Assembly: GCA_017453485.1 (NCBI GenBank) | Contig: JAFTEW010000038.1 | Location: 1 to 53,751 of the forward strand | DNA length: 53,751 nt | Reading direction: 5' to 3' | Source of the DNA: Alphaproteobacteria bacterium | GTDB lineage: Bacteria > Pseudomonadota > Alphaproteobacteria > CAAHEQ01 > UBA3637 | Part shown: positions 12,059-43,687 of the stretch, one piece after another | Layout: each line of letters begins with the position of its first letter | How positions within the stretch are numbered: the stretch's first letter is position 1 | Translations under genes and position numbers: made by a program | The notes under the pieces: model-generated | The model's database searches: none | What the model saw: the letters and a program-made list of their open reading frames with translations, nothing else | Told to the model about the DNA's origin: nothing

Positions 12059-12118
12059 TTTATACCTCCTGAACAATACTATATTTATTATAACTCATTT
12101 TTACTATTTTGTCAATTT

Positions 12119-22733: not shown

Positions 22734-23384
22734 TTACATAAATAACGATACAATTTTAGCAAATAACGGATAAAGCGTTCCGACAAACCAGCCGATGATA
22801 TTTATCCCAGAAACTTGTGACAGCAATATTACACCAATTAAAATAAAAAATCCATACTTTTCTGTTGATTGATATTTTATCGCGTATCTTAAAGGGAGCA
22901 GAGATACTAAAATGCGTCCACCATCCAGGGGCAAAATCGGCAATAAATTGAAAATACCGATGATTAAAGACAAAGATATTCCGTTTCGTAAATTAGCCAC
23001 CAACCAATCTAAAAACAAACCGTCTGGAAGTGTTTCCAATCCGATGCGACCGATAATGACAAACAATATTGCCAACAACAAGTTTGAAAGTGGTCCAGCC
23101 GCAGCCACCAACCCCATGTCTCGTTTTGGATGATTCAGGCGATTAAAATTAACCGGTACCGGCTTTGCCCAACCGAAAAGGATGGGAGCGTTGCTTAAAA
23201 ATAAAAAGGCAGGAAGTAAAAGGCTACCGATTAAATCAATATGCGGGATGGGATTAAGGGTTAATCGATTGGCCTCTAAAGCAGTCCTATCCCCTAATTT
23301 TAATGCCATAAATCCATGTGCACATTCATGTATAATCATGCATAATAACAATGGGATAATCCATGTTGTTAAAGTATATATCAA
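22734..23384 (-). CDS. Site-2 protease family (M50) membrane metalloprotease
   Basis: This multi-pass inner-membrane protein has 216 residues. The zinc motif HECAH lies at residues 19-23 and the downstream metal-ligand block NLLPILPLDGGRI is near 150. Both are diagnostic of the FtsH-unrelated M50B rhomboid-like peptidase group (YwhC/SpoIVFB-like). No PDZ domain is present, so it belongs to the small minimal group. Its substrate is unknown. It overlaps nagZ by four bases at its start (ATGA) and precedes serS by 11, so it is part of that operon. Confidence 0.9.
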   Translation of the reverse strand: MIYTLTTWIIPLLLCMIIHECAHGFMALKLGDRTALEANRLTLNPIPHIDLIGSLLLPAFLFLSNAPILFGWAKPVPVNFNRLNHPKRDMGLVAAAGPLSNLLLAILFVIIGRIGLETLPDGLFLDWLVANLRNGISLSLIIGIFNLLPILPLDGGRILVSLLPLRYAIKYQSTEKYGFFILIGVILLSQVSGINIIGWFVGTLYPLFAKIVSLFM

Positions 23385-32071: not shown

Positions 32072-32398
32072 ATGTCAGAAAGTTTGGTAGAACAGGAAAA
32101 AAACTTTAATATCTTAAAAAATCCGGCCGGGGATTTGATGATTCTGATTCGGGCCCGGTTGGATGATTCCAATCACCCCAAGATTATTTACAATGGCGGA
32201 AAACATGCCGTTCTATATCGCAATGATGGAAATGTGGTTGTTTTGGATTTTATTCATCCGTCTGTTCGGGCTGATTTAGAGCGAGTTTTAAATCTGTTGG
32301 TTGTGGAAGCGCATGACGGCTCAATTATTCGGGAATATATGGCTGAGGTCAAGCATATGAAAGAAATCCCGCTTCCAAACGGATTACAGTTAAATTAA
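32072..32398 (+). CDS. Orphan 108-residue protein, paralogue of the protein at 43352-43687
   Basis: I do not recognise this protein. It is small, soluble, without signal peptide or Cys, and its strand/helix mix suggests one compact domain. A central 38-residue stretch (RARLDDSN... to VLDFIHPS) aligns without gaps to the 111-residue protein at 43352-43687, with about 14 identical positions by my count, including R-A-R, I-x-Y-x-G, L-D-x-I-x-P-S. The C-terminal VVE and R-x-Y stretches also match. An AGGTG ribosome binding site and a promoter precede it, and a shared terminator follows, so it is a single-gene unit convergent with murA. Function unknown. Confidence 0.75.
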   Translation: MSESLVEQEKNFNILKNPAGDLMILIRARLDDSNHPKIIYNGGKHAVLYRNDGNVVVLDFIHPSVRADLERVLNLLVVEAHDGSIIREYMAEVKHMKEIPLPNGLQLN

Positions 32399-33698: not shown

Positions 33699-33847
33699 TT
33701 TTTCTCTCTTTCCTGTTTCTGCTTTTTTCTGGCTTTTAAATTACGTCGCAGAGCTGCTGCCTGCTTTAAAAAAGATTCCATCTTTTTGTCAGAAAGTGAT
33801 AAGTTTTGACGAGCCTGTTGCTCAAAATTATCATTTTGTTGCTGCAT
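33680..33847 (-). CDS. Conserved-looking 55-residue basic protein between dtd and murA
   Basis: This small frame runs MQQQNDNFEQQ...SLSDKKMESFLKQAAALRRNLKARKKQKQ... and ends in CMPSK. It overlaps dtd by 17 bases and murA by 19 bases, spanning the entire gap between the two genes, as is common for coupled small genes. The L-R-R-N-L-K-A-R-K-K-Q segment is a highly basic helix resembling the L-R-x-N-L-x-R-R-K small proteins often annotated beside murA in alphaproteobacteria. That resemblance is from memory and untested. The acidic-to-basic layout with no hydrophobic core suggests a nucleic-acid- or ribosome-binding peptide. Confidence 0.6.
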   Translation of the reverse strand: MQQQNDNFEQQARQNLSLSDKKMESFLKQAAALRRNLKARKKQKQEREKKCMPSK

Positions 33848-34286
33848 GTGGACTCTCTATAATAAAAGTAGCCGGGCCATCATTTTCAATGTGAACTTGC
33901 ATATCGGCCCGAAAAATGCCTTGCTCAACCGGGACATCTAAATCGGATACCTTTTTTAAAAACAGATGATACAATTCGGCCGCCCTTGTCGGGTCTCCGG
34001 CCCCGATAAATGAAGGCCTTCTACCCTTGATACAGTCGGCTAACAAAGTAAATTGCGAAATGATAAGAACCCCACCACCGATGTCTTTGACGGACAGGTT
34101 CATTTTACCAGAAGAATCCTCAAAAATACGTAATCCGACCAATTTATTGGCCATCCAATCCAAATCTGATTCAGTGTCCGTCGGGGCAATCCCGGCCAAA
34201 ACACACAGACCGCGTCCGATACTTCCGACGACTTGACCGGCGACCATAACAGATGATTCTGTGACACGTTGTATAACTAATTTCAT
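33831..34286 (-). CDS. dtd: D-aminoacyl-tRNA deacylase
   Basis: DTD removes D-amino acids (and glycine from mischarged tRNA-Ala) from tRNA. The active-site SQFTL motif is at residues 77-81, and the cross-subunit Gly-cisPro (G137-P138, NDGPATF) is conserved. The length of 151 residues is usual. It is the first gene of the dtd-small ORF-murA run, with a clear promoter upstream in the 113-base gap shared with the divergent 71-residue gene. Confidence 0.95.
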   Translation of the reverse strand: MKLVIQRVTESSVMVAGQVVGSIGRGLCVLAGIAPTDTESDLDWMANKLVGLRIFEDSSGKMNLSVKDIGGGVLIISQFTLLADCIKGRRPSFIGAGDPTRAAELYHLFLKKVSDLDVPVEQGIFRADMQVHIENDGPATFIIESPHAATK

Positions 34287-34294
34287 GGGTCAAA

Positions 34295-34323
34295 ATTCTA
34301 TCAATATCCTTTATTTTTGTCAA
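34295..34323 (-). promoter_or_regulatory. Promoter of dtd-murA
   Basis: Minus strand TTGACA (34318-34323), 17 bases, TAGAAT (34295-34300), a near-consensus sigma-70 site. The predicted transcript would begin only a few bases before the dtd ATG at 34286, leaving almost no leader. Confidence 0.7.
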
Positions 34324-34347
34324 GAAAATATTTCTTCTGTTTTTAAA

Positions 34348-34376
34348 TTGACATTTTATTTTTTCTTTTATATAAT
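34348..34376 (+). promoter_or_regulatory. Perfect-consensus sigma-70 promoter of the 71-residue gene
   Basis: TTGACA (34348-34353), exactly 17 bases, TATAAT (34371-34376), with an AGAGGTT ribosome binding site before the ATG at 34400. Confidence 0.85.
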
Positions 34377-34399
34377 CGTATTCTGGAAAGAGGTTATTG

Positions 34400-34615
34400 A
34401 TGATAAAATATACAAGGCAGCATCAGGAAAATTGCCGTTTCCAACCGCAAAGTCGGTTGGGACGCACGTTGGCCTCTAACTTAACATGGACGGTAGACGG
34501 GCGTGGTCATCGCATCAAAATGACCGATCAGAGCGGCGTTGTATATGATTTGGATCGGCAAGGTCGAATTATTCGCATGACGGATAGTCAGGGACGGATT
34601 TTTAAATTAAAATAG
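34400..34615 (+). CDS. 71-residue protein with two 19-residue YD-like repeats
   Basis: This small soluble protein consists of a basic N-terminal 30 residues with one Cys, then two adjacent repeats at residues 33-51 and 52-70. Aligned without gaps they share D1, G4, I7, M9-T10-D11, G14 and L19 (8 of 19). The G-R-I-x-R-M-T-D-x-x-G-R pattern is like one YD/Rhs repeat. There is no signal peptide, so it is not an exported Rhs protein. The ATG at 34400 follows an AGAGGTT site, and a perfect consensus promoter sits 24 bases before it, so it should be strongly expressed. It converges with sufE, whose last base follows its stop directly. Function unknown. Confidence 0.7.
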   Translation: MIKYTRQHQENCRFQPQSRLGRTLASNLTWTVDGRGHRIKMTDQSGVVYDLDRQGRIIRMTDSQGRIFKLK

Positions 34616-35008
34616 TTATTTCGCAATTTCTTTTATACGCTCAATCATAGCAAAAAAGCCATTACGTCGGGTAGGGGATATATGTTCTTCTAATCCCAAT
34701 TCGCGAAAATATTTGGCAATATCCAACTGCTGTATTTCTACGGCGGTTTTACCATTGACAAAAGTTAGTAAAATAGCCTCTAATCCGCGGACGATATGAG
34801 CATCACTGGTAGCGTTAAAGACAAATTTATCTCCTTCCTGACGATAAGTAAACCACACCTGTGACATACAGCCGTTTACCTTATTTTCTTCCGTTTTGTC
34901 TGCTTCGGCAAATGGGGGAAGATTATCCCCCAATTCGATTAAGTAACGATATTTATCCTCCCAATCGGTCAGATAAGCAAAATTTTCAAATAATTCTTCC
35001 GATGTCAT
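34616..35008 (-). CDS. sufE: SufE-family sulfur acceptor protein
   Basis: SufE accepts persulfide from the cysteine desulfurase SufS and passes it to SufB. The 130 residues carry the acceptor C47 in KVNGCMSQVW, and the family's ISPTRRNGFFAMIERIK tail. The sufS it serves is encoded 15 kb away in the suf operon, and in this window sufE is instead coupled to a periplasmic-protein gene whose stop overlaps its start (ATGA). I infer loss of the usual linkage. Confidence 0.93.
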   Translation of the reverse strand: MTSEELFENFAYLTDWEDKYRYLIELGDNLPPFAEADKTEENKVNGCMSQVWFTYRQEGDKFVFNATSDAHIVRGLEAILLTFVNGKTAVEIQQLDIAKYFRELGLEEHISPTRRNGFFAMIERIKEIAK

Positions 35009-36408
35009 TGAAGAGCATGTCCATTAATCATAATTGAATCGTTTTCTACCTTAACAGTAACGATGTCCGTTGTTGAACCGTCTGGGTTTATGATTCTTTT
35101 ATCATTGTCAATAAAACGCCGAATACTGTCTAATTGCCCACCTTGTGGCTCACAGGCCTGACGCACAACATACTCGGCAACCATTCGCCTCGATTGTGCA
35201 TCCGTTTCCTCTGGATTAATGGCGTTCAATTGGGCTTGTGCTTCATCGCATTGTTGTTGATTGACAGCCGGCGGAGGCGATAGCTTATCTAAGTTTGTAA
35301 AGGTAACGGTTAAATCAATATCCGGTTGTGGGGTATCGTTTTCAACTTTTGTGGCGATGGTGCCTCTGACAGAAATACCTCCATCCGAGTTTTTAGCCTC
35401 TAACTGATTGACATTCAAAACAATATTATTTGCTAATTTTTGCATTTCCGCTTGAACTTCATCGGATTTTTCCGTTTGATTTTTTATCTTATATAATTTT
35501 TGTAAATCATCTTTATTTAGACCGGATATATCAATATTTAAATTGATTTCCGATGGAATTAGTTGCTGGGTCGGAATCATTTGACGAATATCCGAATTTA
35601 AGGCAATCTTATCCATCTTAACGGTTAAAGTAATAATATCATCATGATAGGCCCCGTTCATATCAAAGGCAGCAGAACCCAGTGCATCATTTAATCCAGC
35701 CTGATTAACAAAAATAGCCGGAATTTTAAATTGATAGGTTGCTTGCTGGCTTGATAAAACCTGTTCCAAACCGTTTCCGGAAATGGTGCTACCGACTATA
35801 TCATCCTGATAGGATAAAGACGGAATTAAAACGGCCAAAGAATCAGCCGTAATACGGATATTGGAAATATCCTGTGAATCGGAACGGTCCATCGTATTTT
35901 CATCAATGGCACGAACAAGTGTATCGGAAACAGCTTCCCCAACCGTAAACGTAAACAAATTTGGAACAGATACATTTAAATCTTTAATTTTTTGTGAATT
36001 GTTTGATATTAAGTTGTAATGAGGTACCCAAATCGTATTGGAAATAGCCTCGGAAGTCGTAAAGGTCGCATCCGGCAGTAAATCTTTTAAAAGAGCCTGA
36101 ATATTTTCAAAGATTGATTCAATCTTATATTGACTCTGACCGTTAAATTCACCGGCATAGGTCAAATGAACGGTGCGCGCCGGTATTTGTAAATTATCCT
36201 TGTTAACAGCTGGCAACGTTAAATTAAAGTCCTGACCATCAGCGGTAACGGTTATTTGATTCAGGTCAAAAATTTTGCCCAATTGTGTTTGTGTCGACAA
36301 AAAATCAGTAAAGGATTTTTTGATGGAATCAGCCGTTTCTGCCGCAAAAGCAACTGTTGTAGTCAGCAAGCAAGCCACAGCACAGCCCAAGAATAGTGAT
36401 TTTTTCAT
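35005..36408 (-). CDS. Unrecognised secreted protein upstream of sufE
   Basis: A signal peptide (KKSLFLGCAVACLLTTTVAFA) leads into a 445-residue mature protein rich in Asn, Asp, Ile and Thr, which suggests an extended beta-rich periplasmic structure. I recognise no domain. The pattern of alternating hydrophobic residues and repeated D-I-D/V-N-L-N-x-D-I-S segments recalls the DUF945/AsmA-like lipid-related families, but without a firm match. Two Cys occur late, in QQQCDEAQ and RQACEPQ, and may form a disulfide. Its stop overlaps the sufE start, a translational linkage whose meaning is unclear. A TTGATT/TATATT promoter-like pair with an 18-base spacer lies upstream. Confidence 0.72.
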   Translation of the reverse strand: MKKSLFLGCAVACLLTTTVAFAAETADSIKKSFTDFLSTQTQLGKIFDLNQITVTADGQDFNLTLPAVNKDNLQIPARTVHLTYAGEFNGQSQYKIESIFENIQALLKDLLPDATFTTSEAISNTIWVPHYNLISNNSQKIKDLNVSVPNLFTFTVGEAVSDTLVRAIDENTMDRSDSQDISNIRITADSLAVLIPSLSYQDDIVGSTISGNGLEQVLSSQQATYQFKIPAIFVNQAGLNDALGSAAFDMNGAYHDDIITLTVKMDKIALNSDIRQMIPTQQLIPSEINLNIDISGLNKDDLQKLYKIKNQTEKSDEVQAEMQKLANNIVLNVNQLEAKNSDGGISVRGTIATKVENDTPQPDIDLTVTFTNLDKLSPPPAVNQQQCDEAQAQLNAINPEETDAQSRRMVAEYVVRQACEPQGGQLDSIRRFIDNDKRIINPDGSTTDIVTVKVENDSIMINGHALQ

Positions 36409-43351: not shown

Positions 43352-43687
43352 ATGCCGATTTTGCAAAACAGAACCTATTGCATAAAGCCGACGACAAAAG
43401 AGGGGTTTTTTGTCTTGATTATTCGGGCGCGCGATGAAGATGCTAAGGGAGCTTCTATCATGTATGATGGACGGAGTAACGCTCTGTTTTTGCGCCGTCC
43501 GAAGGAGACAATACTATTGGATTATATTAACCCGTCTATCCAAAAAGCATTGGTCGAATCGGCCGAAGTTGGTGTCGTGGAATTAGATATTATCACGGAA
43601 GATGTGACCCGAACCTACAAAGTCCCGATGCGTCGGGTTGACGAAGTATTTGTAGCGACTTACGGCACATCCTATTCGGTTTGTTAG
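43352..43687 (+). CDS. Orphan 111-residue protein, paralogue of the protein at 32072-32398
   Basis: I do not recognise this protein. It is soluble with no signal peptide. The stretch RARDEDAKGASIMYDGRS... to LLDYINPS aligns gap-free to the 108-residue protein at 32072. A VVEL segment and an R-T-Y motif follow at the same spacing, with a two-residue insertion. It differs by a C-terminal extension, TYGTSYSVC, ending in Cys. The gene starts one base inside the stop of the 77-residue gene. It converges with pyk, leaving 2 bases between stops. I infer a small protein family specific to this lineage; no function can be argued. Confidence 0.75.
   Translation: MPILQNRTYCIKPTTKEGFFVLIIRARDEDAKGASIMYDGRSNALFLRRPKETILLDYINPSIQKALVESAEVGVVELDIITEDVTRTYKVPMRRVDEVFVATYGTSYSVC

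Follow-up and report, generated by a model that had tools for sequence, protein, structure and literature searches.

A 71-residue alphaproteobacterial protein with two YD-like repeats, probably a small binding or self-assembling module

The window, that is the whole 53,751-nucleotide stretch of DNA analysed here, carries at 34400–34615 (+) a small gene, the 71 amino acid ORF P0001, with its ATG at 34400 and its TAG at 34613–34615. The product is basic (pI 10.9, net charge +7.7) and another species of the genus has a relative of it. The protein probably serves as a small module for binding or self-assembly, not as a toxin. The reading preferred here, for which the chances appear about even, is that of a fast-evolving, genus-restricted small protein whose free-standing amphipathic sheet of the YD type would act by dimerising or by covering a partner.

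The ORF is preceded by a sigma-70 promoter, TTGACA-N17-TATAAT, at 34348–34376 (+), composed of a -35 hexamer (34348–34353), a 17-nt spacer and a -10 hexamer (34371–34376); it is the exact consensus that the original prediction had described, with 12 matches in 12 positions. A ribosome-binding site, AGAGG, was read from the sequence at 34389–34393 (+), 6 nt 5' of the ATG. Back to back with the promoter stands an 11/12 promoter-like site (34295–34323, –) of the divergent neighbour dtd (33831–34286, –), which specifies a D-aminoacyl-tRNA deacylase (Pfam Tyr_Deacylase) and lies outside the finding. The convergent neighbour is sufE (34616–35008, –; Pfam SufE), the stop codon of which abuts that of the ORF. 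Within 34616–36408 (–) a 467-aa frame whose start looks like a signal peptide, and which has no Pfam match above the cut-off, overlaps sufE; the pair is retained in several relatives, the long protein being only 20–38% identical.

One full-length relative of P0001 was found, in another species of the genus (genome G003), on contig CASEYR010000002.1 (locus L113), which is labelled 'uncultured Alphaproteobacteria bacterium'. It also has 71 residues and aligns end to end at 39% identity; the frame is thus kept without stops in one relative, in line with the original prediction. The four turns of P0001 (DGRG, DQSG, DRQG and DSQG) all have DxxG equivalents in the relative, and several N-terminal residues outside the repeats are also common to both species' proteins. 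Nucleotide identity at codon positions 1, 2 and 3 amounts to 35, 42 and 26 of 69, the third position being the least conserved, and 15 of the 27 shared residues are written with different codons, as expected for a protein under selection. The coding score of the ORF, 0.156 per codon, is higher than that of any of the 236 out-of-frame or 354 antisense control pieces. It is at the low end for genes, 9 of 118 in-frame pieces being as low, and an ORF opposite a gene (22912–23133) scores higher, so that codon usage alone would not settle the status of the gene; the relative does. The SufE proteins of these two genomes are 73% identical, against which the 39% of the small protein indicates fast evolution. 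With its own promoter and ribosome-binding site, a short leader like those of other genes of this genome and a conserved frame, the ORF is a genuine and, it appears, independently transcribed small gene.

Exact copies of the promoter are clearly non-random: two occur in the window versus none expected (100 shuffles), and 31 in the 1.17-Mb genome versus none for a reversed-pattern control. Thirty of the 31 were inspected and found mostly a few tens of bases 5' of ordinary open frames (two precede tRNAs), which makes a good promoter an ordinary thing in this genome. The claim that the promoter of the small gene is the strongest in the window has to be reduced to a tie, since a site at 12087–12115 (–), which precedes a 370-aa frame starting near 12076, is equally perfect. 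High expression had been inferred as well, and is not supported as written: the relative's gene has a promoter, read by eye, of only 8/12 (TTGAAT-17-TAAAGT), with no site scoring at least 9/12 directly 5' of it, so that strong expression is not conserved between the two. At the relative's locus an exact consensus promoter (L113:4861–4889, –) points away from the small gene, toward an acyl-CoA synthetase-like gene.

The consensus promoter, the tail-to-tail stop codons of the ORF and sufE, and the lack of a listed terminator-like site between the two genes would also suit a transcript that matters in place of the protein, either as a regulatory RNA or as an antisense RNA to the abutting sufE. 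The RNA fold (z -2.04, matched by 4 of 200 shuffles) agrees with such a role. Region 33800–35100 has no Rfam match up to E 1, a search that would miss a new RNA; in the relative the protein is retained, yet its gene and sufE lie on different contigs (C2 and C12 of G003), and the codon-position pattern again speaks for a protein. A functional RNA is accordingly regarded as very improbable.

The two adjacent 19-residue repeats of YD/Rhs type on which the original prediction was built are borne out. They occupy residues 33–51 (34496–34552, +) and 52–70 (34553–34609, +), and form the top-scoring ungapped 19-mer pair in the protein, with a BLOSUM62 score of 42 and 8 of 19 residues identical; shuffled sequences gave a mean of 9.4 (sd 5.1, maximum 37), and 0 of 5000 reached 42. 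Both Pfam RHS_repeat (PF05593; 23.5 bits, cut-off 22) and NCBIfam YD_repeat_2x (TIGR01643; 17.2 bits, cut-off 15.8) match above their cut-offs. The chain ends one residue after the second repeat, and no further Pfam domain was found in P0001 above cut-off. The repeat of the relative is less marked (score 25, reached by 25 of 5000 shuffles), and PF05593 there falls below its cut-off, at 14.1 bits.

In genomes of the family PF05593 also gives 18–25 bits on the repeats of long proteins (frames up to 2454 aa). One of these, L040, was scanned and contains TrbI (113 bits) and beta-flower domains (PF21784/PF21785; 111 and 56 bits). Since the model responds in this range to repeats of the beta-flower type, about 23 bits is no proof of Rhs ancestry, and the YD label seems weaker than it first appears. 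A profile of the two small proteins searched against solved structures nevertheless ranks Rhs cores first (8qja, E 5.2e-7; Tse5, 6.3e-4; RhsA, 9.8e-4), and the beta-flower models PF21784, PF21785 and PF21786 match neither P0001 nor its relative up to E 10; at the level of sequence both results favour the Rhs side.

The long proteins themselves, as far as tested, were rejected as homologues of the ORF, the one scanned carrying TrbI and beta-flower domains. Frames of 2266–2454 aa rich in YDxNGxxIG-like repeats occur in several relatives of the family (L040 in G001:C3; L031, L032, L036, L038 and L039). The layout of L040 is reminiscent of DotG/IcmE of type IVB secretion systems, and the long frames suggest that these uncultured Alphaproteobacteria possess a type IV system.

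The structure of P0001 was predicted with AlphaFold2. From the single sequence the mean pLDDT was 59; with the relative added it rose to 67.5, and to 86–88 in each ten-residue block between residues 31 and 70, a prediction based on two sequences only. Codons 1–27 (34400–34480, +) specify a basic N-terminal tail that is predicted to be disordered (pLDDT below 50 for residues 1–25). Codons 28–71 (34481–34612, +) are predicted, from the model and the alignment, to form a five-strand meander with the four DxxG turns, the strands (residues 29–32, 38–42, 48–51, 57–61 and 67–69) making up an antiparallel, single-layer sheet. In a Foldseek search of the PDB the first 12 rows were all Rhs effectors, Tc-type Rhs shells or teneurins, with a best E-value of 0.036 and no match under 0.001. 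The best VIA-align Z of 4.4 is within the range of common arrangements.

The sheet appears to be amphipathic, with one conserved hydrophobic face. Among the 11 inward-type positions (L28, W30, V32, I39, M41, Y49, L51, I58, M60, F68 and L70) all are uncharged in both proteins and 7 are identical, whereas the 19 other strand positions include 10 and 8 charged residues in the two proteins and 6 identities; the positions were picked by hand from strand alternation and not from coordinates, a choice that leans to hydrophobic residues. The relative has about the same net charge as P0001 at a pI of 10.2, and the positive charge is divided evenly between tail and sheet.

In the preferred reading, five antiparallel strands of YD/Rhs type would make up a single-layer sheet that follows a flexible basic tail. 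A lone sheet of this kind, hydrophobic on one face and open at both edges, would be no catalyst and would enclose nothing by itself, so that it should work by burying the hydrophobic face, most likely in a face-to-face homodimer or beneath a partner protein. For the basic tail and for the other face, which is polar and rich in Lys/Arg, the contact may be an acidic surface such as a nucleic acid, a membrane or an acidic protein. Single-layer beta-sheets may bind peptides or self-assemble.

P0001 resembles the YD/Rhs proteins, among them the Rhs effectors of type VI secretion systems, the BC shells of Tc toxins and the teneurins, in its repeat spacing, its D-x-x-G hairpin turns and a predicted antiparallel sheet whose best fold matches are to Rhs shells. 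In those proteins, according to two reports, many YD hairpins are wrapped into a shell (PMC8765631, PMC6425310), that of RhsA comprising 76 strands (PMC8765631). P0001 differs in having five strands in 71 residues, with no closed shell and no plug, and in lacking the Rhs core/aspartyl protease segment and the variable toxin domain. Of the parts associated with export (PAAR, signal peptide, Tc propeller) none was found by Pfam, and there is no hydrophobic stretch in P0001. The original prediction was therefore right that the protein has no signal peptide, a hydrophobic leader being absent by eye, and that it is not a toxin, as 71 residues hold neither a shell nor a core protease nor a toxin domain. 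With its five strands, and with the remaining hallmarks of the family missing, P0001 qualifies as a protein of YD-type repeats but not as an Rhs toxin. Weak fold matches as an unenclosed antiparallel sheet were also obtained to OspA and to the TCP (G-box) domain of CPAP/SAS-4 (Z 3.8–4.3), with no sequence relation seen and with Z values that common arrangements also reach.

The best rival is a dimeric half-flower. The monomer would be a fragment of 2–2.5 petals of a beta-flower or Tubby-like barrel, dimerising, perhaps at a membrane, to a flower of four or five petals. The report on beta-flowers describes petals with [DNEQ]xxG at the hairpin tips, 8–12 strands per flower, half-flowers, and ten strands in 96 residues (PMC10584680). 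All four turns of P0001 fit this petal motif, the 19-residue period agrees with the last of these figures, and P0001 shares with the clan (PF21784, PF21785, PF21786) hairpin petals of about 19 residues and basic residues. Its basic and aromatic residues, the beta-flower repeats that a relative carries in a long protein and the presence of MORN-repeat viral proteins among the weak fold matches are in keeping with such a fold. No Bflower Pfam model matches either protein at E 10, whereas RHS_repeat does, and the monomer model is an open sheet for which Rhs shells rank first. This model has five strands per monomer, and a flower has 8, 10 or 12 in a closed symmetric barrel. The ranking is no fair test, because beta-flowers are described in the same report as having no PDB similarity by Foldseek or HHPred (PMC10584680). 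On balance this reading is considered unlikely, although it leads the alternatives to the YD-type sheet.

As far as searched, the gene seems restricted to one genus of uncultured Alphaproteobacteria. It is carried by 2 of 43 genomes of the family, the source genome (G000) and G003. Searching 96 genomes gave matches in 18 at E up to 1, of which only these two were below 0.03; the other 16 were dropped for not being so. Five further family genomes, among 7 of 43 matching at E up to 0.1, were set aside as well (E 0.04 to 0.1, in frames of at least 662 aa), as was a weak second place in the source genome (E 0.09). A sample of the class (n=385) yielded the source genome and three partial matches (E 4e-4 to 1e-3) that contain internal stop codons and are unconvincing as homologues, and in a sample of the phylum (n=398) only the source genome matched. 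Contig searches revealed no homologue with a two-row profile and, with the relative's protein, only the relative itself. Neither a phage nor a plasmid origin is convincing: tblastn of P0001 found one record each, at E 0.7 and E 0.6. Three viral-contig scans gave no confirmed relative, PHROGs matched only at E above 0.1, and a distant search of the neighbourhood DNA against plasmids aligned 110 bases only (query 449–558, inside dtd) to one Paenibacillus record.

The gene lies at different loci in the two genomes, between dtd and sufE in the source genome and, in G003, between the acyl-CoA synthetase-like gene and tRNA-Ser/pyrD, the name pyrD being a tentative one given from the sequence. The order dtd-murA is kept in 4 of 4 genomes of the genus, with flanks upstream of dtd and downstream of sufE that differ in each; from different loci and variable flanks, loss, relocation and transfer are not distinguishable.

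Both the position and the distribution bear on whether P0001 is a captured piece or a decaying remnant of a larger Rhs/YD protein, with no present function. Rhs-type repeats are present in the class, PF05593 occurring in 36 of 385 genomes and, among the matches listed, mostly in frames no shorter than about 900 aa, and the gene is placed at poorly conserved junctions in both genomes. A remnant would hardly be expected to keep an equal start-to-stop length and the N-terminal residues outside the repeats in two species, or to have its own promoter and ribosome-binding site, and no other PF05593 match at E 0.01 was found in this genome; we hold this origin to be decidedly unlikely. Frames under 200 aa with PF05593 were among the matches listed in three genomes (G178, G311 and G409), and stand-alone small YD frames appear to be uncommon yet not unheard of. 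A literature search turned up no stand-alone two-repeat YD protein, which does not exclude a published one. BFVD entry A0A874MG55, a 71-aa Synechococcus phage protein annotated 'YD repeat-containing protein', is a weak fold match (E 0.23).

Small size, the sporadic occurrence within the family and an evolution faster than that of SufE would also fit a small inhibitor, an antitoxin or immunity-type protein, or a secreted type IV effector. Such a role is given a similarly low probability: the neighbours, dtd and sufE here and the acyl-CoA synthetase-like gene, tRNA-Ser and pyrD in the relative, are not toxin-like, and no export signal is visible.

YD/Rhs repeats are known mainly from long chains that form toxin shells or adhesion receptors. 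For the protein preferred here, a small YD-type sheet, a stand-alone gene with two repeats and of equal length in two species would offer a minimal unit in which to ask whether one YD sheet folds, what it binds and whether it oligomerises, and it adds a case to the small bacterial proteins confined to one lineage, a neglected class; its impact would be modest should it be only an orphan of unknown role. There is a slim chance that it is a minimal self-assembling YD or half-flower protein, in which identical two-repeat monomers would join by their edges or by their faces to build a ring or a closed shell. If true, it would illustrate a route by which the single-chain cocoons of Rhs proteins could have evolved from a short ancestor working as a homo-oligomer or, read the other way, a route by which a shell protein is trimmed to an adaptor that stands alone.

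Elsewhere in the window two ORFs of 108 and 111 aa (32072–32398 and 43352–43687, both +), neither with a Pfam match, are 28% identical over 82 residues (E 3e-11) and are paralogues of an unnamed family.
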